Shown: piece after piece, positions 409 to 59,578 of the stretch | How positions within the stretch are numbered: the first letter of the stretch is position 1 | Layout: each line of letters starts with the position of its first letter | Origin: Pontiellaceae bacterium B12227 | Lineage (GTDB): Bacteria > Verrucomicrobiota > Kiritimatiellia > Kiritimatiellales > Pontiellaceae | Length of the DNA stretch: 64,000 bases | Direction: 5' to 3' | Assembly: GCA_029432775.1 (NCBI GenBank) | Contig: JAROAZ010000013.1 | Coordinates: forward strand, 62,001 to 126,000 | Notes under the pieces: generated by a model | Told to the model about the DNA's origin: nothing | Seen by the model: the letters and a program-made list of their open reading frames with translations, nothing else | The model's database searches: none | Program-made: the position numbers and the translations under genes

Positions 409-1196
409 TCTGCTCCCCCCAGCCGGGTTGAAATCATTGCTGCCGTTTGTTTGAGCAGTTCTCCATGTTCCTTAAAAACCGATACAGGAAAGCGGCTGCT
501 CGGGCCCGTGACAACTAGGGCCGCAACCGGCGTTCCCTTTTCGCCGAATACCGGTGCGGACAGGCAATGGATGCCCTCAAGCTCCTCTCCGAGGTCGGAG
601 GCAAATCCCGTCTTGCGCGCGGTTTCCAAGGCCTGGAAAAATCCCTTTTTGGTGGTGATGGTCCGGTTCGTGAATTTTTTAAATGAAAGCCTGGAAATCA
701 TATCGTCAAGATCCTCCTTCTCCATGAAGGCCATCATCGCCTTACCGGGAGCCGATGAGTGCAGCTGAAAATGGGCACCCGTTTCCACGACCAGCCGCAA
801 AGAGTGCGGACTGGGAACATAGTCGAGCACAATACCCTGGGCGCCCTCTATTGCACAAAGGGTAATGGTTTCCCGGATCTCATTGCGCAGTTTTTTCATG
901 AGCGGCATGGAAACCTCGATCAGGCTCGTGTGCTTGAGCACATGATAGCTCATCGATAGCAGCTTGCGGCTCACGCTGAATGTTTTGGAATCTTCGTTGC
1001 GTTCGAGATAGCCACGCAGATGCAGCACGCCGGTCGCCCGGTAAACAAAATTTTTCGGAAGCTCCAACAGCCGGGCAATCTCTGAAGTGCCCAATCCCGC
1101 CGGATGCTCGGTCAATAATTCAAGAATGGTCAATCCACGCTCCAGATTGGTCATCTTGAATTCCGATATTTCTTCCTGTTTCACTTTAGCAATCAT
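405..1196 (-). CDS. IclR-family transcriptional regulator
   Basis: The 263-residue product has an N-terminal winged helix-turn-helix (residues about 16-75, with the GLGTSEIARLLELPKNFVYRA recognition region) and an IclR effector-binding domain (about 90-260, with the SAPGKAMMAFM and GIHCLSAPVF motifs typical of the family). IclR proteins usually sense small organic acids or sugar breakdown products and often repress neighbouring catabolic genes. A GGAG ribosome site lies 7 nt before the ATG at 1196; Met15 is a possible alternative start. The gene overlaps the downstream discoidin-domain gene by ATGA and is divergent from a sulfatase, so control of these two is likely. A perfect palindrome 16-30 nt upstream of the start may be its own operator. 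FQALE (minus strand of 624-638) is encoded by one copy of the dispersed palindrome. Confidence 0.95.
   Translation of the reverse strand: MIAKVKQEEISEFKMTNLERGLTILELLTEHPAGLGTSEIARLLELPKNFVYRATGVLHLRGYLERNEDSKTFSVSRKLLSMSYHVLKHTSLIEVSMPLMKKLRNEIRETITLCAIEGAQGIVLDYVPSPHSLRLVVETGAHFQLHSSAPGKAMMAFMEKEDLDDMISRLSFKKFTNRTITTKKGFFQALETARKTGFASDLGEELEGIHCLSAPVFGEKGTPVAALVVTGPSSRFPVSVFKEHGELLKQTAAMISTRLGGAE
624..638. repeat. Dispersed palindrome TTCCA-N5-TGGAA, first copy
   Basis: This exact copy lies inside the IclR gene and encodes FQALE on the minus strand. It is the first of at least 28 exact copies of the same 15-nt palindrome in the window; the full list is given in the findings. Confidence 0.8.
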
Positions 1197-1211
1197 AAGG
1201 ACTCCAATATT

Positions 1212-1226
1212 TAGAACGACGTTCTA
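1212..1226. promoter_or_regulatory. Candidate IclR operator (perfect palindrome)
   Basis: TAGAACG-A-CGTTCTA is a perfect 15-nt palindrome with 7-nt arms. It lies in the 190-bp space between the divergent IclR and sulfatase genes, 16 nt upstream of the IclR start. Position and symmetry suit a regulator dimer site, probably autoregulatory. That IclR binds it is inference. Confidence 0.5.
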
Positions 1227-1386
1227 TATTTCAGATTTTGGATACCAATGACATCATAATTTTCAAAAAGAGTGAGCCGGCACGTTAATTTGACGCAATA
1301 ACATATGTCCTTTGCGGAACTATGTATTTCGAGCCTGCGGAGCTTCCGGTATAAATTATTCGTATTTGTAATGAAAAGGAGCCCGT

Positions 1387-2829
1387 ATGAGACCACTTGC
1401 CTGCATTGCTTTAGCGTTGCTTATGACCACCACTGCTTTCGCCATGGGAAAAACTCCCGTAAAACAGCCCAACATCATTCTGTTCGTTACAGACGACCAT
1501 GGTTTGGATGCACTGGGTTGCTATGGAAATCCGATCATCAAAACGCCCAACATGGATCAACTGGCCGCCGATGGCGTACGCTTTACCCGGGCTTACTGCA
1601 CCAGCGCCAGCTGCGCCGCCAGCCGCTCCGTGATCCTGACCGGACAGTTCGGGCATGCCACCGGCTCCTACGGCCACGTGCACGACTACCACCACTTCAG
1701 CACGTTCGACAACGTGAAATCGCTTCCGGTCATGCTCTCAGCAGCAGGCTACCATACGGCCCAGATCGGCAAATACCATGTCGCCCCCGAATCAGTTTAT
1801 AAATTTGACGTGCGCTACAAATGCGACCCGCGCTCGACCATCGAAATGGCCGAAACCTGCAAGCCGGTGATTGAAGGCGACAAGCCGTTCTTCCTTTACT
1901 TCTGCCCGGACGACCCGCACCGCGGACATCCGTTCACGCCGGATCCGTGGGATGCTCCGAACTCGTTCGGCAACAAAACCGAAGCCTATCCGGGTGAAGT
2001 CATCACCACCTATGACCCCAAGGATGTGATTGTCCCCTCGTTCCTGCCCGACACCAAAGAATGCCGAGAAGAAATGGCGCAGTACTATCAGTCTGTCTCC
2101 CGTATCGATCAGGGCCTCGGCAAGCTGCAGGAACTGTTGAAGGACGCCGGAAAAACCGACAACACCATCATCATCTATATCTCCGACAACGGCATCGCCT
2201 TCCCCGGCGCCAAAACCACGGTCTATGAGCCGGGCATCAAACTGCCCTGCATCGTCAAAGATCCGCGCAGCAACTTCAAAGGACAGGTGAATGAATCCAT
2301 GGTCTCCTGGGTCGACCTCACCCCGACCATTCTCGACTTTGCCGGCGTCGCTATTGACGGCTCTGACTTCCACGGCCGCTCTTTCCTTCCAATCCTTGGA
2401 AAGAAAGATTCCAAAGATTGGAACTCGGTTTATGCGGCACACAACTTCCACGAACTCACGATGTATTATCCGATGCGCGTGGTGCGCACCGGCAACATGA
2501 AGCTGATCTGGAACATCGCCTATGGCCTGAAATATCCGTTTGCATCCGACCTGTGGGCCGCTTCCACCTGGCAGAGCGTCTACCGTAACCAAGGTGAATA
2601 CTTCGGCCACCGCAAGGTGCAGGACTATCTCTACCGCGCCGAGTTCGAGCTCTACGATCTCGATAAAGACCCGGAAGAAAGTGAGAACCTCGCTGATAAT
2701 CAAAAATACGCCGAGCAGCTGGCTGAAATGAAAAAAGAAATGCAGCGGTTCCAGACCGACACCAACGATCCGTGGCAGATCATCTGGGGCAACAAGAGTA
2801 AAATGCAGGGCACCGGCGTTAATCTATAG
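1387..2829 (+). CDS. Exported sulfatase (arylsulfatase/sulfohydrolase family S1)
   Basis: This is a 480-residue type I sulfatase that removes sulfate esters from sugars or polysaccharides. It has a Sec signal peptide (residues 1-19), the metal-binding VTDDHG near residues 34-39, and the formylglycine signature C-A-A-S-R at 76-80, with Cys76 as the residue converted to formylglycine. Further sulfatase motifs include GKYH near 126 and IIYISDNG. It needs a formylglycine-generating enzyme, which is not in this window. An AAGGAG ribosome site lies about 6 nt before the ATG. It is divergent from the IclR gene, and a hairpin terminator lies 35 nt after the stop. The substrate cannot be read from the sequence. 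Two copies of the dispersed palindrome lie in the coding region (2387-2401 and 2409-2423). Confidence 0.93.
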   Translation: MRPLACIALALLMTTTAFAMGKTPVKQPNIILFVTDDHGLDALGCYGNPIIKTPNMDQLAADGVRFTRAYCTSASCAASRSVILTGQFGHATGSYGHVHDYHHFSTFDNVKSLPVMLSAAGYHTAQIGKYHVAPESVYKFDVRYKCDPRSTIEMAETCKPVIEGDKPFFLYFCPDDPHRGHPFTPDPWDAPNSFGNKTEAYPGEVITTYDPKDVIVPSFLPDTKECREEMAQYYQSVSRIDQGLGKLQELLKDAGKTDNTIIIYISDNGIAFPGAKTTVYEPGIKLPCIVKDPRSNFKGQVNESMVSWVDLTPTILDFAGVAIDGSDFHGRSFLPILGKKDSKDWNSVYAAHNFHELTMYYPMRVVRTGNMKLIWNIAYGLKYPFASDLWAASTWQSVYRNQGEYFGHRKVQDYLYRAEFELYDLDKDPEESENLADNQKYAEQLAEMKKEMQRFQTDTNDPWQIIWGNKSKMQGTGVNL

Positions 2830-2861
2830 TTCCAACCTCTGGAACATTCCAGACTTTGGAA
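2830..2861. repeat. Two intergenic copies of the TTCCA-N5-TGGAA palindrome
   Basis: TTCCAACCTCTGGAA (2830-2844) and TTCCAGACTTTGGAA (2847-2861) stand 2 nt apart directly after the sulfatase stop codon and just before a terminator hairpin. No coding constraint applies here, yet both arms are intact. Confidence 0.8.
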
Positions 2862-2863
2862 AG

Positions 2864-4076: not shown

Positions 4077-6557
4077 TTAGGTGGCAACTGATCTTACGGC
4101 CAGTTTCACGTGGTCGGCCTCTAAACCAACGGATTCGGCTGTCACACTTATTTTTCCCGCCTTTCTCCCTGCTTTTACAATCAGCATGCACATACCGCTG
4201 AAGGCATCACGATGATCGGCAATAAACGGTGCGGTGGTTGATGCGTTGCCATTGCCGACTGCCGCAATAGAGCCGGCACCTTCCACCTTGAATTTCACGG
4301 TGTTATCGGCCATCGGGCAGAGATTCCCTTCTGAATCCTCAATACGGACGGTGACGTAGGACAGATCATTCACGCCGGCCTGCAGCCTGGAACGGTCGGC
4401 AGAGAGTTTAACCTGCGCCGGTACACCGGCGGTTCTAACCTCTTTATCTACAACCGCCTTTCCACCGATGTAGCCGACCACCTTGATCGAGCCCGGCGCA
4501 TACGGCACGTCCCACGAGAGACGGTACGGCGACATGAACGTATCGCCTTCGTAGCGGTTAAACTTGACCAGCAGTTCCGTAAGATCTTTGCCCTTCATCT
4601 TTTTTCCGGCCGAGCTTCCATTTACAAACAGTTCCACCTCTTCGCAGTTGGTATAGGCATAAATCGAAATATCAGTATGACCGGTGCCCTCCCAGTTCCA
4701 ATGCGGCAACACATGCACCATCGGCTCCTTCGTCCACTGACTCTGATAGAGATAGAAGCGGTCCTTCGGTAGACCGCAGAGATCAACGGCACCGAAATAG
4801 GACGAGCGCGCCGGCCAGTCGGCATTCCAGTAGCCGTTCGTACTGTTATCCTTTCCGCCATACGGCGTCGGCTCGCCCAGATAGTCGAAACCGGTCCAGA
4901 TGTATTCGCCGTAAACTTCCGGATTCTTTTCCAATGCCTGGAACTCGACATCCGGCGGATAGGCCCACGGCGGGCCGATCAGGTCATAGCTGGTCACCTG
5001 ATTCGATTCGTGGGTCTTATATTTTTCGATCGGCAGATGATAGACCCCGCGGCTGCTGGTGCAGGATGAGGTTTCGGATCCGATCACCGGATTATTCGGC
5101 AGAAATTCATTCACCGGATCGCCGTACGCCAACGGCTTATAGTTCATGCCCGCAATATCAATCTGCGCCGCCATCCCCGTTTTGTATGGACCATCCCACC
5201 AGTTAAACCCGCAGGTGGTCGGACGGGAAGGATCCATTTCCTTCACATAATCATGCAGCTGCCGGGCCATCTTCGGCCCCTCAACCTTTTCGCGCTGTTC
5301 CAGAATTTCGTTTCCGATGCTCCACATAAATACGGAAGGATGGTTGCGGTCGCGTCGAACCATATCCTTGATATCGCGCTCGCCCCACTCCTCGAAGAAC
5401 TTGTTATAGCCGTTCTCCACCTTGGCAATTTTCCAAACATCGAACGCTTCGTCCTGCACCAGAATGCCCAGTTCATCGCAGAGTTCCAGCAGCTCATTCG
5501 ACGGCGGATTATGGCTGGTACGTATAGAGTTCACGCCCATCCGTTTCATGATCTGCAATTTTCGTTCGTCTGCGCGGCGATAAACAGCAGCCCCAAGCGG
5601 TCCGTTGTCGTGATGCAGACAAACACCCTGAATGCGCACAGGACGACCATTCAGCTTAAATTCCTTCTTCGTGAATTCCAGTGTTCGAATGCCGAAGCGG
5701 GTACTGGTCTGATCCAGCTCCCCCTGCTCATTCGAGACGGTGGAGATCAGCGTATAAAGGTTGGGCGTTTCCAAATCCCAACGCTCCGGATTCATGACCT
5801 TCAACACAGCATTCAATTTGGCCGACGCCGCTTGTATGGCCGTTGCAACCGTCCTGCCGGAAGGACTTAAGATTTCATAGCTCACCGACATCGTTTCGGA
5901 ATCAGGATTTCCGGCCAGATTTGTGACTACAGACACTGAAGCTTCAGCATCAGTGATTTCCGGCGTTGTGATATAGGTCCCATACTGCGCAACGCGTACC
6001 GGATTGCGGAAATCGATCCAGACGTTCCGGTAGATGCCGGCTCCCGGATACCAGCGTGACGAGAGATCTTCCGGAGTCAGGCGGACCGCAATGGTATTTT
6101 CCCCACCGAAATTCAGGAAGTCGGTCAGGTCGTACTGGAATTCGATGTAGCCATACGGACGGTTGCCGACAAATTGGCCATTCACCCACACGTGTGCGTT
6201 ATACATAGCCCCATCGAACGTAATCAGCGCCCGTTTTCCTTCAGCTTCAGCCGGAACAGCGAATGACTTACGATACCATCCGGTTCCATGGAAAGGAAGG
6301 CCGCCGCAACGGGCGTTGTATTTAACGTCGAACGGGCCTTCAATGGCCCAGTCGTGCGGAAGATCCAGCGAGCGCCAGGAGGAATCATTGTAAGAAGTCG
6401 CCTCAGCCCCGTCGACCGCTCCCTTATGAAACTTCCATCCTTCGTTAAAGGAGGTTCTGAATGCTCCGTTCTGCACGGAAAGTTTTCGTGATGACATGGC
6501 CCATCCTGTAGTGGCCGTTGCGGCCGTCGCGGCTCCGACAAAATTCCTTCTATTCAT
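4077..6557 (-). CDS. Glycoside hydrolase family 2 (beta-galactosidase-like), exported
   Basis: The 826-residue enzyme begins with a Tat-like leader (MNRRNFVG, then an Ala/Thr-rich hydrophobic run). The GH2 sugar-binding domain covers about 35-195 (WKFHKG, LPHDWAIEGPF, GTGWYRKSF), an immunoglobulin-like domain about 200-290 and the TIM barrel about 295-600. The acid/base is Glu417 in SIGNE and the probable nucleophile is Glu495 in VIGSETSS. C-terminal Ig-like domains follow (about 640-826). GH2 enzymes of this shape cleave beta-galactosides or related sugars from exported oligosaccharides. Exact specificity cannot be read. One dispersed palindrome lies at 4929-4943 (FQALE). Confidence 0.93.
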   Translation of the reverse strand: MNRRNFVGAATAATATTGWAMSSRKLSVQNGAFRTSFNEGWKFHKGAVDGAEATSYNDSSWRSLDLPHDWAIEGPFDVKYNARCGGLPFHGTGWYRKSFAVPAEAEGKRALITFDGAMYNAHVWVNGQFVGNRPYGYIEFQYDLTDFLNFGGENTIAVRLTPEDLSSRWYPGAGIYRNVWIDFRNPVRVAQYGTYITTPEITDAEASVSVVTNLAGNPDSETMSVSYEILSPSGRTVATAIQAASAKLNAVLKVMNPERWDLETPNLYTLISTVSNEQGELDQTSTRFGIRTLEFTKKEFKLNGRPVRIQGVCLHHDNGPLGAAVYRRADERKLQIMKRMGVNSIRTSHNPPSNELLELCDELGILVQDEAFDVWKIAKVENGYNKFFEEWGERDIKDMVRRDRNHPSVFMWSIGNEILEQREKVEGPKMARQLHDYVKEMDPSRPTTCGFNWWDGPYKTGMAAQIDIAGMNYKPLAYGDPVNEFLPNNPVIGSETSSCTSSRGVYHLPIEKYKTHESNQVTSYDLIGPPWAYPPDVEFQALEKNPEVYGEYIWTGFDYLGEPTPYGGKDNSTNGYWNADWPARSSYFGAVDLCGLPKDRFYLYQSQWTKEPMVHVLPHWNWEGTGHTDISIYAYTNCEEVELFVNGSSAGKKMKGKDLTELLVKFNRYEGDTFMSPYRLSWDVPYAPGSIKVVGYIGGKAVVDKEVRTAGVPAQVKLSADRSRLQAGVNDLSYVTVRIEDSEGNLCPMADNTVKFKVEGAGSIAAVGNGNASTTAPFIADHRDAFSGMCMLIVKAGRKAGKISVTAESVGLEADHVKLAVRSVAT

Positions 6558-6729: not shown

Positions 6730-8208
6730 CTACAGCTTCAGCCCGTCGAATCCCGAGAGGAACTCAACCATGGCCGCCTTCAACGGCTCCACACCGCCAA
6801 CGGCATCACTTTCAATATTGATTGGCATTTGCGGATCGTGCAGCGATTTACGGATCAGGATCCACCCGCCGTTACAGGTCACATGAACACCTTCGTAGCT
6901 GTTAGGCGTGCAGGACCAGCCATCCTGACTATCCACGAACGCTTTGAAGCCTTCGAGCACCGTGTCGGCATAGGCGGAGAAATCATCCACCAAAATCTGC
7001 GGACGGAACTCAATGGCTTCGGCCGGCTCCGGCAGTTCGGCAATCAGTTCATCCACCGTTCCTTCGCCCGCCGCTTTCAGCTGCGCAATCTTGATGAGGA
7101 TTTTGGCAACCTGATACGCGCCGTCATCGAGGAAATAGTTTTCCTTCAGCGCACCGTGGCCGGACGTTTCCAATGCCAGGAAGCTCGGAGTACCGGCTTC
7201 GTTCAGACGAATGGCTTCGTTGATTACATTTTTATAACCGCGCTGGAAGCGGTGGTGAACGCCGCCCAGTTTTTCTTCGATGTACCATTTCAGGCCGCTC
7301 GAAGTTACCGAGTCGGTGACGATGGTGGAGCCCGGCTGCTCACCAAGAACGATGGTGGCCATCAGGGCAATAAAGCGGTTGCGGTTGATCGGCTTGCCGT
7401 TTTTATCCACGGCTCCGGCGCGATCCACATCGGTATCGAAAATAATGCCGAAGTCGGCGTTGTTTTCGGTCACGGCAGCAATGATGGCATCCATTGCATC
7501 TTTATCTTCCGGATTCGGAATATGGTTCGGGAACGACCCGTCCGGGTCGAGGAACTGGCTACCGGCCGTATCTGCGCCCAGCGGGTTGAGTACTTTGTCG
7601 ACAAAGAACCCTCCGGCGCCGTTGCCGGCATCAACAACAATCTTCAGCCCGGCCAGAGGAGTTTCGCTGCCGGCACCCTCGCGAATAATTTTTACGAGAT
7701 GCGCAGCATAGTCCCCCATCAGGTCGATCTTCCGAACATTGGAAGTTTCCAGTGGTTGGAACTCACCGGCTTCGGTGGCCAGCGTCAGAATTTCTTTGAT
7801 ATCCTGTTTGCCAAGCCCGCCTTCGCGAACGAAAAATTTGAGGCCGTTGCGGTTGAACGGCAGATGACTGGCGGTCAGCATAATCGAGCCGTCGTAGGCG
7901 TGGTTTGCGAAGACGGTCGACATGAACATCGCCGGCGTGGAAGAAAGGCCGCTATCGAATACCGCACAGCCGCCTTTTTCCAATCCCTGGAAAACCGCGG
8001 CTTTAATGGAATCGGCCGAGAGACGGGAGTCGGTCCCCACCGCCACCTTCAGGTCCGCCTTACCGAGCTTTTTTTCCAACCATTGGAAAAAGGCATAGCC
8101 GATCGTTCGCGCAATTTCCGGCGTCAGATTGACCGGTTCGCCTTCAACGCCCTCGAGTGCAACACCGCGCACATCGCTTCCATTCTGTAATTTGAAATAT
8201 TTATCCAT
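6730..8208 (-). CDS. Phosphomannomutase/phosphoglucomutase (alpha-D-phosphohexomutase)
   Basis: This cytoplasmic enzyme, 492 residues from the ATG at 8208, moves phosphate between C1 and C6 of hexose phosphates. Visible motifs are the N-terminal GSDVRG, the phosphoserine loop TASHLPFNRNG (the usual form is TASHNP, so Leu replaces Asn), the metal-binding DTDVDRAG and the sugar-binding ETSGHGA. I prefer the ATG at 8208 over an upstream in-frame GTG at 8220 because the GTGGAG there reads as the ribosome site of the ATG. It would feed sugars into glycolysis or exopolysaccharide synthesis. Three dispersed palindromes fall in the gene (7747, 7978, 8074), encoding FQPLE, FQGLE and FQWLE. Confidence 0.92.
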   Translation of the reverse strand: MDKYFKLQNGSDVRGVALEGVEGEPVNLTPEIARTIGYAFFQWLEKKLGKADLKVAVGTDSRLSADSIKAAVFQGLEKGGCAVFDSGLSSTPAMFMSTVFANHAYDGSIMLTASHLPFNRNGLKFFVREGGLGKQDIKEILTLATEAGEFQPLETSNVRKIDLMGDYAAHLVKIIREGAGSETPLAGLKIVVDAGNGAGGFFVDKVLNPLGADTAGSQFLDPDGSFPNHIPNPEDKDAMDAIIAAVTENNADFGIIFDTDVDRAGAVDKNGKPINRNRFIALMATIVLGEQPGSTIVTDSVTSSGLKWYIEEKLGGVHHRFQRGYKNVINEAIRLNEAGTPSFLALETSGHGALKENYFLDDGAYQVAKILIKIAQLKAAGEGTVDELIAELPEPAEAIEFRPQILVDDFSAYADTVLEGFKAFVDSQDGWSCTPNSYEGVHVTCNGGWILIRKSLHDPQMPINIESDAVGGVEPLKAAMVEFLSGFDGLKL

Positions 8209-9627: not shown

Positions 9628-9642
9628 TTCCAATCATTGGAA
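9628..9642. repeat. Intergenic TTCCAATCATTGGAA palindrome
   Basis: This exact copy sits 2 nt after the stop of the PEP-CTERM gene and 5 nt before its terminator stem, the same arrangement as at 2830-2880. Confidence 0.8.
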
Positions 9643-9739: not shown

Positions 9740-10960
9740 TTACAGCAAAGGGCTAAGTACCGAATAGTCCTGCTTGGCAAGCTGCTCTGAGCCATAGGCG
9801 GTAAAATGGACATGGACATTGTGCGGGATTTGTAGTTCCTTGAGCTGAGGTTTTGCAAATGCATAGAGATCGTTCACTGGAATCCCCTGCTCTTTCATGA
9901 GTTTTCGAGCCGGTGCGTTATAGGCTTCCTGATCCAGATAAACGATGGATCCCGGGCAATCTTCCGGAATCGGCGTGGTGGTGGCAAAAACGAGCTGTGC
10001 GCCGGTGCGTTTCAGTTCCTTCACAAAAAGTTCCAAGTGCTGGAGATATTTCTCCGGCGGGAATTGTACGCGCGCGCCGGGCTGATCGGCATCGAGCGTC
10101 TTGTTGTCTTCATCCACATGCTTCATGGCATGCAGGCCCCAGTTAAACTGAATGATGTCCCATCCGCGCTCACCGCCCTTCTCCATATATTCATCAACGA
10201 TCTTCTTCCAGTCCGGTTTGGCCTCGTTATAGGTCGTGCCGCCGGAATAGACGATCGCCTCGCCGGCAAACAGGTTGCGCGTTGCGCCGTAGTAACCGCC
10301 GACGATCGAGTCGCCCACGATCAGGATACGCGGGCGGTTTGGATCGGAACCTTCGTTGAACGCCTCAAAAACGGCATTCGCCACCTGCTCGGCCATCAAC
10401 TGCGCGCCGACTTTGGTCGGCAAATTGGAGTTGTTCTGCACCATTTCGCTCAGGCGCGTGCGGGTGTAGTCGCCAAGGTCGTTCACTTTTACGCCGTTCG
10501 GGCCCAGCTGCTGCTTAAACTTCGAACCATAGGCCCAGTCGACGCCGCTCGCATAGCCTGCCATTTTCCCACGAACCGGCGTGGTGGTGCAGCCCACCAG
10601 AAAGGCGCCCGATTTTTCCAATGCCTGGATGAGCCCCGAATAGATGCCCCAGATTTCATTCTGCGCGGCCCGCGGTTTTCCGCTTTCGTGAAACATGATC
10701 TCCCGGCCATAGGAAAAGTGGATCACTTCATAGCCCTTGCCATAGATGTGCGTACTGCAGAAGGCCGCCCAGTCGGGTTTTCCAACCTTTGGAAACTCAA
10801 CAAAGGTGCACTCCGCCTTATCGCCAATGAGCTTGAGCAGCCCGGGCTTATAGGCCAGCATGACCTCATCGCCCAGCAGCAGGACGTTGTGGTTTCCGCG
10901 GGCCAGAACGGGCAGCGCAGAGGCTGCGACCGCAGAAGAAATAAACATACGGCGCTGCAT
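9740..10960 (-). CDS. Exported SGNH/GDSL-type hydrolase, two-lobed
   Basis: The 406-residue protein starts MQRRMFISS (Tat-like leader, hydrophobic to about 20). The second half is a clear SGNH fold: ILIVGDSIVGGYY at 212-224 with nucleophile Ser218, and IIQFNWGLHAMK as the block III region. The first half shows a weaker echo (VLLLGDEVM at 26-34, VIHFSYGRE near 79), in which Asp-Glu replaces the catalytic Asp-Ser; it looks like a degenerate duplicate. Such enzymes remove acyl groups from sugars. The start codon shares one base with the stop of the upstream sulfatase (TAATG), so the two proteins are translationally coupled and probably act on the same polymer. Palindromes lie at 10616 (one change) and 10780. 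Confidence 0.83.
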   Translation of the reverse strand: MQRRMFISSAVAASALPVLARGNHNVLLLGDEVMLAYKPGLLKLIGDKAECTFVEFPKVGKPDWAAFCSTHIYGKGYEVIHFSYGREIMFHESGKPRAAQNEIWGIYSGLIQALEKSGAFLVGCTTTPVRGKMAGYASGVDWAYGSKFKQQLGPNGVKVNDLGDYTRTRLSEMVQNNSNLPTKVGAQLMAEQVANAVFEAFNEGSDPNRPRILIVGDSIVGGYYGATRNLFAGEAIVYSGGTTYNEAKPDWKKIVDEYMEKGGERGWDIIQFNWGLHAMKHVDEDNKTLDADQPGARVQFPPEKYLQHLELFVKELKRTGAQLVFATTTPIPEDCPGSIVYLDQEAYNAPARKLMKEQGIPVNDLYAFAKPQLKELQIPHNVHVHFTAYGSEQLAKQDYSVLSPLL

Positions 10961-12777
10961 TATACCTCTGGAATCAGACTGATCGGTATCTCCAGTTTTT
11001 TGTCATCGGCTCCGAGCGCGAAGTCGGTCACGACAAAGTCGTTTTCCTGCGACCAATTGATTTCCGCACGGCGGTCACCCAGCACGATTGTACCGAGCTT
11101 GTTGCGGAACCAGTTCGCCAGTTTTACATACTGCGGATCATCGGCCACGTTCCAGCGTTCACCGGGATCGGTCCGCAGATCGTAAAGACACATCTGAACG
11201 TCATCACGCGGACATTCCAGAGCCCATTTAATATGGGCACCCGGCTTTTCGCCCCACTTGTCGCCGGGCTTTCCATCTTTGTTGCGGGTTTTCATGGAGA
11301 ATGCAAAGTCGCGCGACCGCATATAGGCGCGGGGCCCGACGACATGATTCATCTCGCCGACAATATATTCACGCTGCCCGCTCTTTACCGATTTCCAAAG
11401 GCTGGAACCATCCAGGTATTGGAAATCCTTCGAGCTGATATCCACCCCCGCCGCTTCGTAGAAGGTCGGAGCGAGATCGACAAACTCGACCAGGTTTTCG
11501 GAGTGCTTCCCTTTCGGGAACAACCCCTTAATCGAGGACGCGGCCACCATGGCATTGTGCGTGGACTGATCCCACGGGCCGAACTTGGCCTCGATCCCCT
11601 GCTCGCCCAGATGCCAGCTGTGGTCACCGCAGACATAGACAATGATCCAGTCGCGACCGGTCTTCTTGTTGTGCTTGATGAACGATTCAACGGCGCGCCC
11701 GATCTGGGAATCGCCGTGCGCGCAGAAGGCATAGTAGTCGCGAATAGCCTGCAGCTTCTCCTCTTTCCGAAGGTTGGAAAAATTCATTTTGGCGTGAAGT
11801 TTTTTAAGCTGCGCCGGCATCTTCTCCACTTCGGTCGGATCGAACTCCGGAATGATATAGGGAATCTCCCGCTCCTTCGTTTTGAAGAGCTCGCGGAACT
11901 CTTTCGAGGGCAATACCGGCGAGTGCGGGAAATGGAAACCCAGATAGGTAAACAGCGGTTCGTCCGGTTTTGCTTCGTTTTCCAGATAGTGGATAAATGC
12001 GGAAGCGATTTCGCCATCGAGTGTCTTTTCGGTGGGTTGGGAGCTTTCACCCCCGATAATCATGCCGCTCTGGTCGCGGGTGTAGGCGCGCAGAATGTCG
12101 CGCTCAGCATCAATCGCATCGCGGTTGGCACCGTCCTCCGGAAGCAGCTCTTTGTTTTTACCGCGGGAGGTAAAATATTCCTTTGTCGAGCCGTCGGGAT
12201 AGTAGAAGCGCTCCACCCGCTGCGAGCCTTCCGGGCTCCATTTGGTTTCCGGAAAGAAATCAGTGCGCCCGCTCTTCTGCAGATCGTTTTTCTTTTCAAC
12301 GACCACGTCATATTGATCGACCGTGTTCCAGGTCAAGCCGGGGCCCCAATCGAAAATATAATAGCCGTGTTTACCGAACTGCGCGGTGGTATAGCCCGCC
12401 GAGCGCATCACCTGCGGGATCGTCTTTTTACACGGATCGGCCGCCTGATGATTCTGCTCAAAACCATAGACACCATTCCGGAAAGGATACTGCCCCGTAT
12501 GCATGGAAGCGCGCGATGGTGCGCAGGCCGGTGCATTGCAGTAGGCCTGCGAAAAAATGGTTCCCTGCCTGGCCAGTCGGTCCACGTGCGGCGACATCAC
12601 ATAACCGAGCGGGCTCAGCTTTGAACCACTCACCGCTTCATTATAGCACGCCAGCGAATCGGGCCGCTGATCGTCGGTTACAATCCAAAGAATGTTCGGC
12701 TGTTTTTTCTTTGCCGCAAGACTGCGGGCCGCCACACCGGCCACCAGTGCCGTTCCCATAAAATGTCTTCTGTTCAT
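10960..12777 (-). CDS. Exported sulfatase (Tat leader)
   Basis: This 605-residue type I sulfatase has the leader [14 protein letters not shown], the metal-binding [11 protein letters not shown] (31-41) and the formylglycine signature C-A-P-S-R at 85-89. Later motifs include [10 protein letters not shown] and [15 protein letters not shown]. It lies 2 nt after the GH16 gene and overlaps the SGNH gene by one base, giving an operon GH16, sulfatase, SGNH. That context suggests it desulfates the polymer or oligosaccharides made by the GH16 enzyme. Palindrome copies at 11393, 11410 and 11765 encode SSLWK, FQYLD and SNLRK. Confidence 0.94.
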
Positions 12778-12779
12778 TT

Positions 12780-15695
12780 CTACTCCAATTCAACCGTGGT
12801 TCGATAAAAGCGGTTGGAGCTGAGCGGATCCAAGATTTCAATCAGACTTCCAGTCCCTGGAACTCCGTTGGTAAGAGCCGTCCAATCTCCCGCCAGATCT
12901 TCCGTGTATTCAACTGAGTAAAGACGATTCAGCACCGATGGCATATACACCTTATAGATACCTTCTTCGGTTGCCCCGGCAGCATGGAATGAATCAGCAG
13001 AATCATTCGGACCCGTTCCGGCAATATATTCCGAGAAGGCATCCAGACCATCGCCGTCCACATCCAGACCGGCATCCTTACCGGGCACAGTCATTCCATT
13101 CATCAATTCCCACCAGTCCGGCACAAGGTCGCCATCGCTGTCCGTCGCGTCCGGCAGGAGCGTAGACGGATCTCCGACCACGTTGCCGGAGGCCTGCGCC
13201 AGGCCATTGATAGCCGACTCGGTGCTCTTGTCTCCATTACGGTTTACGTGTCCACCGGGATTATCGAAGAAGAGATTATTCTGCAGCAAAAAATTATCAT
13301 GGTTAGCCCAGAACCCTTCTCCGCCGCCTGCCATCAGGATGCTGTCTTCAATGATGGTGGATGGAGAACCGTACGCGTCCGACTCGATGCCGTCGGAGCT
13401 ATTGCTGATCACCGTGCAGCTGACCAGCTCAACCGTTCCATAGTTGTGGCGGATAACACCGCGGCCGAGTTGATTGGTATTCGCGGCAATCAGGCAGTTG
13501 GTCATGCGAACCGTCGTGTTTTCAGATCCCCACTGCATGGTAAAGGCACCGGCATCACCGGAGGTGTAGTTGTTGATCATCTGCGAATCGACCATCTCCA
13601 CCAGCGCACCGTCGCGGGCTCCGAAGGCAGCACCACCGGCATATTTTCCGAAAGAGCGATTGTTGGAGAACTCGCAGTTTTCAAAACGCACTTCAGCCAG
13701 CCCCTGTCCATCCACGCCGTCCACATAGGCTCCGCTGCCACCGCCGTTGGCCGGATTGTGATCAACCATACGGCAGTTGGCGATGACGACATTGGAGCAG
13801 ACCCCGAGGATTTCGATTCCGTGGTCGTAGCTGGCTGTGGTGCCCCTGACTGTAAACCCGTCAAACCGGAATCCGTCGCACCCTTTGATATTGACGGTGG
13901 AATAACCATCCGGCGGCGATTGAATAAGTGTCGGATTAGCGATCGGATCACGATCATCCAACGATGTATCGCCGGCGGCAAAACCTCCGTAGACCTTGAG
14001 ATTGTTGATTCCGAAAAAAGTCAGATACTCGGGATAGATTCCACCAGCCACCCAGATCGAGTCGCCATCGTAGGTTTCGTTGATGGCTGCGGGAATCGAT
14101 TTCTTCGCACTGTTCCAGCTCAGGCCGTCGTTGTCATCATCACCATTGGACGCATCGACATACCAGGTGGTGTCGCTCTCGGGCTTGATCCATGCGCGAA
14201 CATAATCAACATCATACGAATTTCCGAGCTTATGAAGGTTGGCATTGATATCACTGAGCTTGCTCAGATAGTCATTGAATTCATTCCCTACCATCAGACG
14301 CTGCCCAACCTTAAAAGAGCCCGTGGCGCGCGTACGATACAACTGCCCGTCGATATAGATTTTGCAGGTATCTTTGTCCCACTCGAACCCGTAGACATGG
14401 AAGTCATCAATCATATTAAACGGTAACGTGTAGTGCTCGGGATCGGGGATCGAGTTACCGCCATTATCATCCACTCCCGCAGCCGATGGCGTTTTCCAGA
14501 TGTGGAAGTTACAGGAATAGTAATCTTCATATCCGGGACGGCCGGAAGGACATTCCAGCATGTCGATTTCCCGATTGTACGAAGAACTGCCGCCGGTGAG
14601 CCACCAAGTGGTCATAATCGGGAAATCGAGCGCGCGGCAGCGGATTTCAAAATAGCCGTACCGTCGGGATGTGGTGCTTTGAAAATAGCCGGCATCATAC
14701 AGGTAAACCTCGTCGTATTTATTTGTGTATGGAGCCGCACGCAGATCAGTTGTTAGGATGGCATGGCCTCCCACCAACGCCACGTTGTTATATTCATGAT
14801 ACACCGGGTCGCGCCCCTCCCAGTTGACGGCCTCCCACTTCCGCGGATCGAGCGCGGTGCCGTCGAACTCATCGGTCATGGGTTCATAGGGAACCCAACC
14901 TGCTGAGTTGCCGGGGTCGGTTAAGGGCCAGGCCTCGCCCACCACCTTCACCTCAAAGTTATCCATGTGCACTTCAGAAATTTTTCCGAACGCTTCGATG
15001 CTCAGTCCGGTGCTGTTTCCGCCGGTTGAATAGCCGGCAAAGAGCTCTGTGCCGGTTGAAATGCCCAGATCCACTTCCGAGGAGGTGTAGTTCACAGAAA
15101 CGCCGTCCGTCAGAACCGCCTTCGCGAAGAGCGATCCGCTTACATCACGGATGGTCCATTCCACCCTGAACCAGTTGCTGGTATCCGCATTGGCGGTATT
15201 GACCCCGAGAGAACTGTGCGCAACCCAGCCTTCCACCCAGGGGGCTTCAGGAAGGCGATTTCCTATTGCGCCGCCGCGTTGGGCAATGTAAAACCCGTTA
15301 TTCGTTCCACTCTCCCAATCCGGCGAGGTGGACACCAGCAGCCCGAAGACGTTCTTGTTCATGTTGTTCGTGATCTGCCCACCCCCGACATACACGTACC
15401 GGAAGTCGGAACAAACCACAGCCACCTGGCCACTCGAAATCGTGAACCCGGTCTGATGCGGAATGTGATAGTTGCTCTCGGCCGCCCCGTCCAGAGCGCC
15501 AAAGGCGTTATCGCGCCCGCTGAACAATTCCTGCTGGGAGCCGCCATTATCCTTGGCATCCCACAGAGTTCCAATGATTGGAACCCCGGAAATATAGGAA
15601 CTGAAATCCTCCGAGACTACAACGCCTGCCCCGACCGGATTCGCACCCAGCCAAACACTTGCCGCTAACAAAACAAACGTGCTCTTTTTCATCAT
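12780..15695 (-). CDS. Secreted GH16 glycosidase fused to a beta-helix domain
   Basis: From the ATG at 15695 the product has 971 residues: a signal peptide (to about 24), an N-terminal module of about 230 residues shared with the two upstream paralogues, a GH16 domain (about 270-510; catalytic EIDMLE, with [17 protein letters not shown]), a right-handed beta-helix region (about 515-840; starts [18 protein letters not shown]), a Ca-binding [16 protein letters not shown] segment and a C-terminal beta domain. GH16 members with EIDxxE cut beta-1,4- or 1,3-linked galactans and glucans; with sulfatases next door, agar, porphyran or carrageenan is likely but unproven. An in-frame start at 15752 is rejected because it reads through a terminator hairpin. 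Palindromes lie at 12848 and 15569. Confidence 0.9.
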
Positions 15696-15737
15696 TCCAA
15701 CCTGCCGGCGCTGAAGGCCGGTTTGCTCTGGATGCTG

Positions 15738-15764: not shown

Positions 15765-15790
15765 CTTACTTTCAGATTAAAAAATCTGAA

Positions 15791-33123: not shown

Positions 33124-33138
33124 TTCCACTCCTTGGAA
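33124..33138. repeat. Intergenic TTCCACTCCTTGGAA palindrome
   Basis: This exact-arm copy lies in the 225-bp space between the divergent nrfH and mtaB genes, 40 nt upstream of the mtaB start. Confidence 0.75.
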
Positions 33139-44007: not shown

Positions 44008-44022
44008 TTCCAGACATTGGAA
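44008..44022. repeat. Intergenic TTCCAGACATTGGAA palindrome
   Basis: This exact copy lies in the 113-bp space between the divergent DsrE-like and polA genes, where promoters should sit. Confidence 0.8.
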
Positions 44023-48697: not shown

Positions 48698-49348
48698 ATG
48701 AACAGGGCTCCGGATATCCTGTTCGCCTACAAGGTGCTTTTTTCGCATTATGGAAAACAGCACTGGTGGCCGGCCGAGACCCGCCTGGAAATGATGGTCG
48801 GAGCAATCCTTACGCAGAACACGGCGTGGACGAATGTGGAAAAGGCCCTTTCCAATCTTCGGAAGGCTGATGCGCTGAACTTCCAGACATTGGAAAATGC
48901 ATCGCGGGAAGAAATCATCGAATGGATCAGGCCAGCCGGATTCTTCAATCAGAAGTCGGCTTACATTCAAGGCATGATTTCCAATGTTCGGAACAAATTC
49001 GGAGGCTCGCTCGACGAGCTGTTTGCTTTAGAAACTTCCAACCTTCGGAAAGAGCTGCTTTCATGGAAAGGAATCGGTCCGGAAACCGCCGACAGCATCA
49101 TCCTCTATGCAGCCCGGAAACCGGTATTTGTCGTCGATGCCTACACCAGACGCATCTGTACGCGCCATGGCTGGATCGGCGAAAAGACAAAGTATGACGA
49201 CGTGGCCAGACTGTTCAGCAACAACCTGCCGGAAGATGTTCAGCTGTTTAACGAATACCACGCACTGATCGTTCAGGTATGCAAAGAGCACTGCTCAGCA
49301 AGAAACCCGAAATGCGGAGACTGTCCGCTGGAATGTTTTTTATCGTAG
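48698..49348 (+). CDS. Endonuclease III-like HhH-GPD DNA glycosylase
   Basis: The 216-residue protein belongs to the HhH-GPD base-excision repair superfamily: MMVGAILTQNTAWTNVEKAL, the helix-hairpin-helix LLSWKGIGPETADSIILYA with the Lys position before GIG, the conserved VDAYTRRICTRHG (catalytic Asp), and a C-terminal [4Fe-4S] set CX6CX2CX3C (the last spacing is short). It excises damaged bases, with unproven specificity. Four dispersed palindromes or close variants fall within 200 bp and encode SNLRK, FQTLE, SNVRN and SNLRK. Confidence 0.88.
   Translation: MNRAPDILFAYKVLFSHYGKQHWWPAETRLEMMVGAILTQNTAWTNVEKALSNLRKADALNFQTLENASREEIIEWIRPAGFFNQKSAYIQGMISNVRNKFGGSLDELFALETSNLRKELLSWKGIGPETADSIILYAARKPVFVVDAYTRRICTRHGWIGEKTKYDDVARLFSNNLPEDVQLFNEYHALIVQVCKEHCSARNPKCGDCPLECFLS
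48850..49050. repeat. Cluster of four palindrome copies, three with TCGGAA arm
   Basis: 48850-48864, 48979-48993 and 49036-49050 read TTCCA-N4-TCGGAA; 48881-48895 is the exact form. The TTCGGAA variant also occurs at 11765 (opposite orientation) and 34376, so it is a subfamily rather than random decay. Confidence 0.75.
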
Positions 49349-49418
49349 ACGGAGCTTCCAGCTCCGTTGTCCCGGCATGAACCCGATCTAACGCAACGGA
49401 GCTGGAAGCTCCGTCTAC
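49345..49418. repeat. Perfect 25-bp inverted repeat, likely bidirectional terminator
   Basis: The arms 49345-49369 and 49394-49418 are perfectly complementary around a 24-nt loop. Each arm is itself a palindrome around GGAGCT-TCC-AGCTCC. It overlaps the stop of the endonuclease III-like gene and ends 6 nt before the gatB stop (convergent). Confidence 0.8.
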
Positions 49419-49423
49419 ATTTC

Positions 49424-50874: not shown

Positions 50875-52338
50875 TTAAAGAGACGGGCGTTGTTTATGCC
50901 ATTCGGTGGACTGCTCGTACGCGTGACCGACTTTCAGGATGGTTTCCTCCTGAAAATCATCACCAATAATCTGCAGCCCGATCGGCATACCGTTGGATGC
51001 AAATCCGCACGGCAGCGACAGGGCGCAGTTTCCTGCCAGATTGATCGGCGTGGTAAGAATATCGTCGAGATACATCTTCAGCGGATCATCGGTTTTATCA
51101 CCCTTTTTATAAGCAGGCGTCGGGGTGACCGGAGCAAGAATCGCATCGCACTCTTTGAACGCTTCTTTGAAATCGTCACGGATCAGCGTACGGACTTTCT
51201 GCGCTTTTTTATAATAGGCATCATAGTAGCCGCTGCTGAGCACATAGGTCCCGAGAATGATCCGACGCTTCACTTCCTGACCGAATCCGGCCGAGCGGGT
51301 TTTAGCATAGAGCTCCGCCGGATCTTTACCGTCGAGGCGCATCCCATAGCGGATGCCATCAAACCGTGCCAGGTTTGCGGATGCTTCGGCCGTCGCAATA
51401 ATGTAATAAACAGCGATCGCATATTTGGCATTTGGCAGGCTCACATCGACAATCTCAGCACCGAGGCTTTTGCAATGCTCGACGGCATCACGAACAGATT
51501 TCTCAACTTCCGGGTCCATGCCTTCCACAAAATATTCCCTGGGCAGACCGAGTTTCATGCCCGCCAGCGAAGTATCGGACGGCAGATTTTTCCCAAAGGT
51601 TGGAACTTCCATTTCGATAGATGAAGAATCCATCGAATCATGTCCGCAGAGCGTTTCGAGCAGAATCGCGGAGTCTTTCACGGTTTTAGTCAGCGGCCCG
51701 ATCTGATCGAGCGACGAGGCAAAGGCCGTCAGACCATAGCGGGAAACCCGGCCATAGGTCGGCTTGACCCCGACGCACCCACAGAAGGCGGCAGGCTGGC
51801 GGATGGAACCGCCGGTATCCGAACCGAGCGAAGCAATCGCTTCGTCGGCCGCCACACAGGCAGCAGATCCGCCGGAGGAACCTCCGGGAACGTGATCGAG
51901 GTTCCAGGGATTGGAAGTTTTTCCCAGTGCCGCGTTCTCCGTACTGGAGCCCATGGCAAATTCATCCATATTCACGCGCCCGAGCAAAACAGCGCCGGCT
52001 TCGCGAAGCTTGGAGATAACCGTGGCGTCGTAGGGAGCAACATATCCTTCCAGAATTTTTGAAGAACAGGTGCAGGGTTGCCCTTTCACATTGAGCAGAT
52101 CTTTAATCGCAACCGGTATTCCAAGCATTGGAAGTTTTTCACCGGCGGCACGGCGCCCATCGGCAACCCTCGCCTGTTCGAGTGCGTCTTCACGGTCGAT
52201 GGTCAGATAGGCCCCGACGTTTCCGTCGTTCGCATCAATTGATGCCAGCACGTCGTTCACAATGTCGACCGACGTGCAATCGCCGGCGGCGAGCTTTTCG
52301 GAGAGTTCAGCAATAGTCAGTTTGTTCAGTTCAGCCAT
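50875..52338 (-). CDS. gatA: Asp/Glu-tRNA amidotransferase subunit A
   Basis: This 487-residue amidase from the ATG at 52338 releases ammonia from Gln for GatB. The Ser-cisSer-Lys triad is visible: Lys in VAIKDLLNVKG, and the GGSSGGSAA and GSDTGGSIRQPA blocks. The frame extends upstream to 52359, but those residues come from the inverted repeat of the neighbouring cassette. Palindromes at 51902 (SNPWN, a family motif) and 52119 (LPMLG) may be partly constrained by protein function. Confidence 0.96.
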   Translation of the reverse strand: MAELNKLTIAELSEKLAAGDCTSVDIVNDVLASIDANDGNVGAYLTIDREDALEQARVADGRRAAGEKLPMLGIPVAIKDLLNVKGQPCTCSSKILEGYVAPYDATVISKLREAGAVLLGRVNMDEFAMGSSTENAALGKTSNPWNLDHVPGGSSGGSAACVAADEAIASLGSDTGGSIRQPAAFCGCVGVKPTYGRVSRYGLTAFASSLDQIGPLTKTVKDSAILLETLCGHDSMDSSSIEMEVPTFGKNLPSDTSLAGMKLGLPREYFVEGMDPEVEKSVRDAVEHCKSLGAEIVDVSLPNAKYAIAVYYIIATAEASANLARFDGIRYGMRLDGKDPAELYAKTRSAGFGQEVKRRIILGTYVLSSGYYDAYYKKAQKVRTLIRDDFKEAFKECDAILAPVTPTPAYKKGDKTDDPLKMYLDDILTTPINLAGNCALSLPCGFASNGMPIGLQIIGDDFQEETILKVGHAYEQSTEWHKQRPSL

Positions 52339-53149: not shown

Positions 53150-53164
53150 TTCCAAGGCGTGGAA
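53150..53164. repeat. Intergenic TTCCAAGGCGTGGAA palindrome
   Basis: This exact-arm copy lies 2 nt beyond the stop of the EpsI-like gene and 10 nt before its terminator, the same stop-palindrome-terminator order as at 2830 and 9628. Confidence 0.75.
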
Positions 53165-55158: not shown

Positions 55159-55233
55159 GCGAGCGTAGCTCAGTGGTAGAGCTCGACCTTGCCAAGGTCG
55201 TTGTCGAGAGTTCGAATCTCTTCGCTCGCTCCA
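55159..55233 (+). tRNA. tRNA-Gly (anticodon GCC)
   Basis: A cloverleaf is visible by eye: acceptor GCGAGCG with CGCTCGC, D-arm GCTC/GAGC, anticodon stem CGACC/GGTCG with loop TTGCCAA, T-arm GAGAG-TTCGAAT-CTCTT, discriminator T and encoded CCA. Confidence 0.97.
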
Positions 55234-55327: not shown

Positions 55328-55404
55328 ACCCCGGTAGCTCACCTGGACAGAGCGACAGATTCCTAATCTGTAGGTAGTGAGTTCGAGTCTCGCCCGGGGT
55401 ACCA
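55328..55404 (+). tRNA. tRNA-Arg (anticodon CCT)
   Basis: Acceptor ACCCCGG with CCGGGGT, D-arm GCTC/GAGC, anticodon stem ACAGA/TCTGT with loop TTCCTAA, T-arm GTGAG-TTCGAGT-CTCGC, discriminator A and encoded CCA. Confidence 0.96.
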
Positions 55405-58261: not shown

Positions 58262-58529
58262 TCTATCCTCCTCAAAATGAGTGCACGCAAACGTGTTCCC
58301 TTACGTACAAGTAGACAAAAAGTGCCGGAGCAGATTTCATCAGACAACTGGCTGTATCTCTAGGTGGCAGGAAGGAAGGGAAAGGCCTGATAACTCGTCA
58401 ACGGTTCACTAACTTGTCAGCAGCCCAATGTTTATAGCCATTGATTTATGGGCTTTGTTATATCAAAAGAATCTCTTATCACTGTAGAGACGACCACACT
58501 CCCGGTTCCGCTCTAACCGTCGTCGGGGC
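58262..58529. other. 268-bp intergenic stretch
   Basis: This is promoter territory for the TonB-like gene and the 3' side of the esterase gene. I see no terminator hairpin with a T-run and no gene. Confidence 0.4.
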
Positions 58530-59441
58530 CTAATCCTCGGCGATTTTATCGTCGCCATCCGTATCCGACACAGCAGCCAGCAGGTCGCAGAGGTCCGGAG
58601 TTTTTCCGCTAAGGTATCCAAGCGAAACCAGGAACCGGTCCGCCTCAAGCATCGTTCCGAAATACATCTCTTCACTGTGGTCCCGATTGAAGAAGGCATG
58701 CGGTTGCCCCTCGTAGATATGTAGATCACAACGAAGGCCCAACGCCTCCATCTTTTTCTTATACGCTTTTGCGCTAGCGACGCGAAACGCCGTATCTTCT
58801 GAGCCGGTCAGAATCAGCGTCGGCGGCGCATCTTTGTGGATATTGTGCAGCGGCGAAAATTCCTGCCAATAGTCCTTCACCCGATTATGCCCAAATCCCG
58901 CGGAACTGTTGTCCGCCACAGGATTAAGCAACACCAGAATGTTGGGAACGCAGCTTACCGACCGATCCTCGCCGACTTCATTGAATTCTTCCAGCATCGC
59001 GGTAGCCGCCGCCAGATGCCCGCCAGCCGAACCACCGCCCGCGGCCAGACGATTTGGATCAATCCCCAATTCAACCGCGTGTGTACGCACCCAGCGCATC
59101 GCGGATTTGGCGTCCATCACGCATTCCTTTGGGGTAGTTCCATACTGTTTCGCCGTTCGGTACTCCGCCGTAATCGCCACCATGCCGCGCGAGGCCAGAT
59201 AGTCGCATTGACCTGAAAAATGAGTAAATCCTCCGCCCTGCCATCCGCCACCGTGAAAGAACACAATGGCCGGTACGCGGCCGGACGGTTCATGGCTCGG
59301 CGGATTAAAGATATGCAGTTTCAGCGTCACATCGCCGATGGTTTTATACACCACGCTTTGGTCCGGCGCGGGCACTTCTTCGGCTAGCGCAACAAAAGTC
59401 AGACTCAGCATCATCAGCATATTCGTTATGAACTTTTTCAT
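58530..59441 (-). CDS. Secreted alpha/beta hydrolase (esterase/lipase type)
   Basis: From the ATG at 59441 (AAGGT 7 nt upstream) the product has 303 residues with a signal peptide (MKKFITNMLMMLSLTFVALA). Hydrolase family motifs are the oxyanion FFHGGGW, the nucleophile elbow GGGSAGGH (Ser), Asp in LTGSEDTAF and His in GQPHAFF, as in the BD-FAE/alpha-beta hydrolase 3 group that deacetylates polysaccharides. C-terminal residues contain a short Asp-rich DTDGDDKIAED tail, possibly Ca-binding. It lies 17 nt after a small coupled frame and probably shares the beta-helix transcript. Confidence 0.87.
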   Translation of the reverse strand: MKKFITNMLMMLSLTFVALAEEVPAPDQSVVYKTIGDVTLKLHIFNPPSHEPSGRVPAIVFFHGGGWQGGGFTHFSGQCDYLASRGMVAITAEYRTAKQYGTTPKECVMDAKSAMRWVRTHAVELGIDPNRLAAGGGSAGGHLAAATAMLEEFNEVGEDRSVSCVPNILVLLNPVADNSSAGFGHNRVKDYWQEFSPLHNIHKDAPPTLILTGSEDTAFRVASAKAYKKKMEALGLRCDLHIYEGQPHAFFNRDHSEEMYFGTMLEADRFLVSLGYLSGKTPDLCDLLAAVSDTDGDDKIAED

Positions 59442-59458
59442 ACTATTTACCTTCATAT

Positions 59459-59578
59459 TTAGAGCAACGATTCTCGCAGTGCGTTTTCCACTTCCGCCCA
59501 CCCCTTCTCTTCCAGACGTTGGAAACGGTCGCCTATAAAAAGGAAATGATCGGAGAACGGTGGGTTCTGGGTGTTCAT
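59459..59578 (-). CDS. 39-residue frame between beta-helix and esterase genes
   Basis: The frame starts MNTQNPPFSDHFLFIGDRFQ and ends with an acidic helix-like tail. Its ATG overlaps the TGA of the beta-helix gene (ATGA at 59575-59578), which favours translation. A dispersed palindrome (59510-59524) encodes its FQRLE. No homologue is recognised; it may be a real small protein or the stump of a lost gene. Confidence 0.4.
   Translation of the reverse strand: MNTQNPPFSDHFLFIGDRFQRLEEKGWAEVENALRESLL

Follow-up and report, generated by a model that had tools for sequence, protein, structure and literature searches.

Cyanobacterial HIP1 is a contiguous 8-mer (GCGATCGC) that lies in genes and changes by substitution. 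SeqA binds cooperatively to helically phased pairs of GATC and depends on hemimethylation of this 4-mer by Dam. MatP (at its matS sites), Noc and SlmA are chromosome-organising dimers that bind palindromes, with tens of sites in parts of the chromosome; matS is itself an odd palindrome with an R-N-Y centre. NrdR boxes occur as one pair or two upstream of ribonucleotide reductase operons and are unrelated in sequence to the motif described below. REP and REPIN elements are dispersed palindromes. Here we describe a palindrome, TTCCA-N5-TGGAA, that is scattered through a 64,000-nt stretch (hereafter the window) of the genome of Pontiellaceae bacterium B12227. Pontiellaceae belong to Kiritimatiellales in the class Kiritimatiellia. 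In our opinion the palindrome, whose fuller consensus is T-TTCCA-R-N-S-N-Y-TGGAA-A (15-17 bp), is probably the recognition site of a putative sequence-specific dimeric DNA-binding protein of Kiritimatiellia. Judged on searches of the open-access literature alone, it is apparently undescribed: the string TTCCANNNNNTGGAA was not found there, word searches gave no relevant description among the titles listed, and three Pontiella papers (PMC7356697, PMC10880615, PMC6388578) gave no relevant passage on a palindrome, repeat or motif.

The original prediction, made from the letters of the window, gave at least 28 exact sites. All 28 starts are indeed exact, and one more, at 23023, had been overlooked, which brings the total to 29 (Table 1); 100 dinucleotide shuffles of the window gave a mean of 0.11 and a maximum of 2. 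The window further holds 30 one-mismatch versions. Fifteen of the 17 near matches listed earlier are of this kind; position 24971 has two mismatches and 51590 has three, the latter lying next to a one-mismatch site that starts at 51591. Genome-wide, the count is far above chance: the window genome (6,294,789 bases, labelled G000 below) contains 2297 sites and six copies of the reversed control pattern, an enrichment of more than two-hundred-fold. The proposed unevenness is weakly borne out, with no site in 4.7 kb of DNA that aligns to none of five relatives and 18 in 35.2 kb of aligned DNA (two searched ranges of the window), although these numbers are small. A first count (2 in 15.1 kb of unshared DNA, 27 in 48.9 kb of shared DNA) had pointed to depletion in unshared DNA; the searched ranges alone hold too few sites for such a claim. 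The site-free stretch claimed at 15584-24057 shrinks to 15584-23022 because of the site at 23023.

The shape of the motif is strict. In 393 kb of G000, a spacer of five bases is found at 126 sites and every other length from 0 to 12 at 0-3 each, and the inside-out and reversed control patterns occur 0-4 times each. One-mismatch sites number 132 in the same DNA (5 for the control), 54 of them being changed at the outermost T and 50 at the inner A, where G is the replacement in 38 cases. Of the G000 sites, 125 have sufficient flanking sequence. In 117 of these C or G stands at the centre, 73% have A and 23% have G at position 6, and in 55% the base before the left arm is T; further out than one or two bases the flanks show only slight consensus. 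The centre is likewise C or G in 247 of 257 sites when G000 is taken together with two relatives, Pontiellaceae B12219 (G020) and Pontiellaceae B1224 (G021). Two five-base arms that stand one helical turn apart, separated by a spacer of strict length and related by a dyad through a C/G pair, are what a symmetric dimer would be expected to recognise, and each arm would contact one half of the dimer in successive major grooves. Position 6 is C or T in some other families (loci of G355, G074 and G313), which would fit drift in the preference of the binding protein. In genome G040 the A/T fraction runs 0.85/0.19/0.87 along the spacers of the arrays, and such A/T-rich ends around a G/C-rich middle would help the DNA to curve around or along a protein. 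An RNA hairpin or intrinsic terminator was also considered: at 301 genic sites read on the coding strand, A/C mismatches at positions 6/10 number 44 and G/T 65 (p=0.055), and the flanks of intergenic arrays mostly have T before and A after, which gives no support to such RNA structures.

Neighbouring sites also show preferred spacings. Close pairs (19-49 bp) are in clear excess: 120 were found in G000 where 26 are expected, 132 in G021 where 29 are expected, and 85 in G107 where 7 are expected. Neighbours prefer distances of about 21, 31, 42, 52, 63 and 73 bp, that is, about two to seven helical turns. In G107 and G060, exact and one-mismatch sites are separated by 21-22, 30-33, 39, 41-42, 52-53, 62-64 and 72-75 bp and by no other distance up to 75 bp. 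Pairs at 19-72 bp pooled from G107, G060, G000, G020 and G021 (exact or one-mismatch, n=110) give a vector strength R of 0.67 at 10.5 bp, and pairs at 15-110 bp within the same gene in nine genomes (n=37) give R=0.73; taken modulo 3, the distances of the latter leave remainders 1, 0 and 2 in 17, 13 and 7 cases. In intergenic arrays the usual repeat distances are 31 and 32 bp, frequently alternating, and correspond to three turns of 10.5 bp; those of families f4, f10, f22 and f40 lie mostly at 30-32 bp, and f10 also uses 22 bp. Because neighbours tend to share a face of the helix over up to seven turns, an interaction of bound dimers is suggested: they may touch or bridge one another, so that binding would be cooperative on one face of the DNA. 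Binding of an abundant protein had been among the options offered at the outset, and it is the one that strict spacing and helical phasing favour, with binding itself being a prediction.

SeqA at GATC pairs is similar in that the palindromes are genome-wide and the pairs are phased; it differs in that 10-12 bases are specified here. The resemblance to HIP1, proposed earlier, holds for abundance and genic location and fails for sequence, since neither HIP1 nor a contiguous GC-rich relative of it is the motif found here. The palindrome is over-represented throughout the genome, genes included, as is typical of highly iterated palindromes. These share with our motif a short palindrome, very many copies and an abundance that depends on lineage, and cyanobacterial genomes in which palindromes are highly over-represented carry a putative cognate methylase (PMC4390886). 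By analogy, a methylase might recognise the motif, and methyl-directed repair or marking would create and keep the copies; palindromy and gain by point substitution would also fit. We nevertheless find this explanation unlikely. HIP1 is contiguous and tied to methylases, unlike a motif of 15-17 bp with a strict N5 spacer, phased neighbours and intergenic arrays, and methylation does not predict helical phasing. Moreover, beta-class N6/N4 methylases have no match in five of the 23 site-rich genomes (G060, G175, G185, G074, G402) and only a sub-cut-off one in G020. A shared methylase of this class, the one searched for (C5, Dam-type and type I classes were not), is thus excluded by its absence from site-rich genomes.

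Conservation of the DNA was assessed by alignment of the window to orthologous stretches from six congeners: G020, G021, Pontiella sulfatireligans F21 (G028), G002, G003 and G012. The relatives of the window organism by DNA polymerase I include Pontiellaceae B12219, Pontiellaceae B1224 and P. sulfatireligans F21. In each of G020 and G021 (about 78% DNA identity) 12 of 15 aligned sites are intact, compared with 13% of ten-base control combs; the arms are identical at 147 of 150 positions in both, the spacers at 59 and 63 of 75, respectively. When only third positions of codons that encode the same residue in both genomes are compared, the arms match at 33 of 35 positions in G020, 37 of 37 in G021, 15 of 16 in G028 and 37 of 50 in G002; elsewhere 55-57% match (p between 1.4e-9 and 0.01). 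Arm conservation broadly tracks site richness, most clearly the density of the fetched stretches, which is 0.01 per kb in G003, 0.09 in G012 and 0.22 to 0.57 in the other four.

These comparisons agree with the earlier statement that the nucleic acid, and not the encoded peptide, is under selection. It had been claimed as well that copies fall in all three frames, and genic sites do split 36/28/27 (n=91, the same 393 kb). An artefact of peptide or codon usage, with FQxLE and similar peptides generating the motif, could draw on the frame used most often (by 128 of 301 genic sites), in which FQxLE is the commonest peptide. Yet all three frames are used, the spacer varies although synonymous arm positions are conserved, many copies are intergenic and other spacers are unenriched, and we regard such an artefact as having next to no chance of being right; peptide conservation as a cause is ruled out by the synonymous-site test.

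The same alignments tell how sites arise and vanish. A comparison of orthologous positions for gain or loss, suggested earlier as a check, finds that sites differ mainly by point substitution: of 50 ungapped orthologous positions that lack a site, 40 differ from the motif by one to three substitutions. Genic sites of Pontiellaceae and family f2 would come and go mainly by substitution and be kept by selection, with conversion bias as a less likely means of upkeep. Another proposal, a short mobile unit, is not supported for this genus. A miniature or copied palindrome of the REP/REPIN kind would show itself by insertion and by shared flanks, and nine further alignments are indeed gapped at a site, among them those of intergenic 2830 and 2847 in two relatives each. 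Of 45 array spacers in G402, 19 are nearly identical to one that lies on a different contig (shuffled control 0), so that the arrays of this one distant family seem to be copied. Elsewhere no spacer recurs (0 of 13 in G040, 0 of 5 in G107, 0 of 7 in the Pontiellaceae set), only three of the nine gapped alignments are in genes, and the flanks are unconserved beyond one or two bases. Taking this together with the substitutions and the conserved synonymous arm positions, we hold copying to be a very improbable general explanation. REP and REPIN elements are comparable to the arrays of G402; the Pontiella sites, with unconserved flanks, little genic insertion polymorphism and a variable centre, are unlike them.

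To place sites relative to genes, we called genes with a simple codon-usage caller and set aside sites at contig edges (5 of 126 in G000, 39 of 57 in G402). The caller put one array (L279) inside a gene, and a separate reading of the translations put three of its four sites between genes. In Pontiellaceae and family f2 most sites are in coding sequence (91 of 121 placed sites in G000, where the coding fraction is 0.86; 62 of 84 in G107; 61 of 77 in G021), spread evenly along the genes. In several other families they are intergenic, often in arrays of 31/32 bp: the placed sites within genes are 0 of 28 in G040, 0 of 13 in G115, 1 of 12 in G185 and 1 of 18 in G402. Intergenic sites are found in convergent, divergent and tandem gaps. 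For 18 genomes the genes adjoining one array each were inspected by reading their translations; they look unrelated, and no self-regulated gene stands out among them. Nor did 21 stretches of 20 kb (420 kb, 0-9 sites each) of the single-contig genome G107 show a trend from origin to terminus, with GC-skew switches at about 1.4 and 3.4 Mb.

A classical regulon, in which a transcription factor has very many operators, is another possible explanation. NrdR offers a precedent: its boxes lie 15-16 bp apart and are bound by oligomers in a manner that depends on helix phase (PMC12051234). The present motif differs in having thousands of sites, mostly inside unrelated genes and not in box pairs upstream of ribonucleotide reductase operons (NrdR itself was not searched for). 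Some 2300 sites, three quarters of those placed lying evenly along genes and others between convergent genes, together with arrays that adjoin unrelated-looking genes, make a regulon a highly doubtful explanation to us. The T-N11-A geometry of the palindrome is a hint toward a LysR factor. As a shared factor a LysR regulator was rejected, since its HTH_1 domain has no match in ten of the 23 site-rich genomes (G001, G338, G040, G091, G367, G175, G185, G402, G140 and G229). Some genomes used for absence are less than 90% complete (G001 79%, G402 88%, G367 89%); G040 lacks a match despite 1808 sites and 96% completeness.

Since the sites lie in genes and in all intergenic orientations, without promoter preference and in thousands of copies, chromosome organisation is favoured over a regulon, and the putative dimeric protein would be nucleoid-associated and not a promoter-specific regulator. 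Its sites would differ from those of MatP, Noc and SlmA in numbering hundreds per Mb and in lacking an origin-terminus trend in G107, where macrodomain-type placement was not seen in the 21 stretches. By the tests made, the palindrome would seem to work like a cooperative architectural site and to be a member of none of the HIP1, NrdR, SeqA or MatP/Noc/SlmA families.

Being genome-wide and, in this genus, largely genic, the motif could also serve as a DNA uptake or self-marking sequence, and the DNA import channel ComEC is present in all 23 site-rich genomes tested. It is present in 14 of 15 site-poor genomes too (37 of 38 in all) and so does not discriminate; furthermore, uptake sequences are not known to be palindromic or helically phased, or to form intergenic arrays. 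We consider this role quite unlikely. As a separate observation on ComEC, nine of the 23 site-rich genomes (G001, G094, G115, G129, G140, G229, G313, G367, G391) and none of the 15 site-poor ones have more than one domain match; in these nine there is a longer ComEC-like frame, of about 930-1217 aa. The ComEC frame at G146:C1:1409676-1410500 has three in-frame TAG codons, which suggests recoding of TAG or decay in that lineage.

The taxonomic spread of the palindrome is restricted. Within a sample of the phylum (387 genomes), a strong excess is confined to one class, Kiritimatiellia, where 13 of 40 families (f1, f2, f3, f4, f7, f8, f10, f16, f21, f22, f27, f33 and f40) have at least one genome with at least 50 sites; none of the sampled genomes of other classes has more than 30. 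In more distant bacteria, 58 loci (1.0 Mb) gave a single site. The 29 Pontiellaceae genomes analysed have 5 to 2297 sites each and form a continuum, not two classes; G028 has 829 in 7.4 Mb and G002 has 1146 in 4.4 Mb. In the site-poorer G003 and G012, the sites among those listed are clumped, for instance many at 337-478 kb of G012:C1 with the next at 680 kb, and the clumps are perhaps islands of different origin. A search of contigs filed as viral with a phased pair gave 14 stretches (L211-L224) that carry sites of this type and may be either phage genes or host flanks; a viral search with an 804-aa protein of the window found no relative. The control pattern AAGGT-N5-ACCTT occurs 55 times in the 2.4 Mb of G087, a member of another class, and 0-15 times in the other genomes listed; a second spaced palindrome may be over-represented in that separate lineage.

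Several observations weigh against a dimeric architectural protein as the explanation. Seven congeners have only 4-8 sites per Mb, and because density within one genus spans about 4 to 414 per Mb, the palindrome system is dispensable at the genus level. Arms are not significantly conserved in G003 (14 of 33 synonymous positions, p=0.22) and G012 (32 of 48, p=0.08), against 54% elsewhere, and conservation does not strictly rise with genome-wide density, given that G028 stands above G002. Phasing is softer in G000 (R=0.36, p=0.0014), whose pairs fit periods of 9-9.5 bp better (0.46, 0.44) than 10.5 bp, both judged from the first 50 of 120 pairs; in G021 it is R=0.35 with p=0.04 (25 of 132 pairs). 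A spacing of 17 bp, off helical phase, occurs nine times in Pontiellaceae and is absent from G107 and G060. Because pairs that belong to a single array are not independent, nominal p-values for phasing are optimistic, and part of the phasing in G402 may be copied along with its recurring spacers. Finally, none of the three protein families tried (LysR HTH_1, beta-class methylase, ComEC) fits as a shared specific factor.

Table 1. The 29 exact palindrome sites of the window, with their surroundings and their state in the aligned congener genomes (intact or with mismatches; the strand is given as a point)
Feature	Position	Strand	Location	State in congeners and close partners
Exact site TTCCAAGGCCTGGAA	624..638	.	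within gene	
Exact site	2387..2401	.	sulfatase gene	1 mismatch in G002; 22 bp to next site
Exact site	2409..2423	.	sulfatase gene	G002 keeps arms, spacer differs
Exact site	2830..2844	.	convergent intergenic, immediately 3' of stop codon	gap in G012, G002
Exact site	2847..2861	.	convergent intergenic	gap in G012, G002; 17 bp from site 2830
Exact site	4929..4943	.	glycoside hydrolase 2 gene	2 mismatches in G012, G002
Exact site	7747..7761	.	phosphoglucomutase gene	1 mismatch in G020, G021; intact in G002; one-mismatch partner 7730 (17 bp)
Exact site	7978..7992	.	phosphoglucomutase gene	intact in G020, G021, G012, G002
Exact site	8074..8088	.	phosphoglucomutase gene	intact in G020, G021
Exact site	9628..9642	.	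convergent intergenic, just 3' of stop codon	
Exact site	10780..10794	.	within gene	2 mismatches in G012, G002
Exact site	11393..11407	.	sulfatase gene	intact in G002; one-mismatch partner 11410 (17 bp)
Exact site	12848..12862	.	gene, near 3' end	
Exact site	15569..15583	.	gene, near 5' end	
Exact site	23023..23037	.	within gene	intact in G002; absent from earlier list
Exact site	24058..24072	.	aldo/keto reductase gene	1 mismatch in G020, G021, G028; one-mismatch partner 24090 (32 bp)
Exact site	24107..24121	.	aldo/keto reductase gene	intact in G020, G021
Exact site	25067..25081	.	uvrC-like gene	intact in G020, G021, G028
Exact site	26039..26053	.	uvrC-like gene	intact in G020, G021, G002, G028
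Exact site	33124..33138	.	divergent intergenic	intact in G020, G021, G002
Exact site	33834..33848	.	radical-SAM gene	intact in G020, G021
Exact site	36047..36061	.	gene, near 3' end	intact in G020, G012, G002
Exact site	39806..39820	.	ABC permease gene	intact in G020, G021, G012, G002, G028; one-mismatch partner 39775 (31 bp)
Exact site	44008..44022	.	divergent intergenic, upstream of polA	intact in G020, G028
Exact site	48881..48895	.	within gene	intact in G021, G002 (both spacer changed), G028; one-mismatch partner 48850 (31 bp)
Exact site	51902..51916	.	amidase gene	intact in G021
Exact site	52119..52133	.	amidase gene	intact in G020, G021
Exact site	53150..53164	.	tandem intergenic	intact in G020, G021, G012, G002
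Exact site	59510..59524	.	tandem intergenic	

Some further features of the window deserve mention. The 3' end (9544-9625) of the open reading frame (ORF) at 9224-9625 has many similar copies in congeners and encodes a tail that we take to be PEP-CTERM-like; a palindrome site starts three bases past its stop codon. At 49336-49426 there is a long near-perfect hairpin (TGTAGACGGAGCTTCCAGCTCCGT..., z-score -11) with matches scattered on both strands in congeners; it looks like a REPIN, unlike the palindrome TTCCA-N5-TGGAA. The window also contains a class A RNase P RNA at 29033-29381 on the minus strand and, on the plus strand, tRNA-Gly(gcc) at 55159-55233 and tRNA-Arg(cct) at 55328-55404.

As to the broader picture, we would tentatively propose, at slightly less than even chances, that Kiritimatiellia have an undescribed chromatin-like addressing system, in which a sequence-specific architectural protein would have thousands of strictly defined, phased sites, kept by selection, in intergenic and coding DNA alike. 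Its dimers would assemble along one face of the helix chromosome-wide, and the code would be written as intergenic arrays in some families, genome-wide in others. To our knowledge, genome-wide short motifs such as HIP1 are still without a proven function. The present motif is richer in information than HIP1, and its strict spacer, the phase of its neighbours and its synonymous conservation point to a bound protein that associates with itself. A cultured site-rich relative exists in P. sulfatireligans F21, which like strain F1 was sequenced with PacBio (PMC6388578), and the site-poor congeners provide natural controls in seeking this protein. If the proposal is true, a specific architectural protein would here constrain the coding sequence of a bacterial chromosome.

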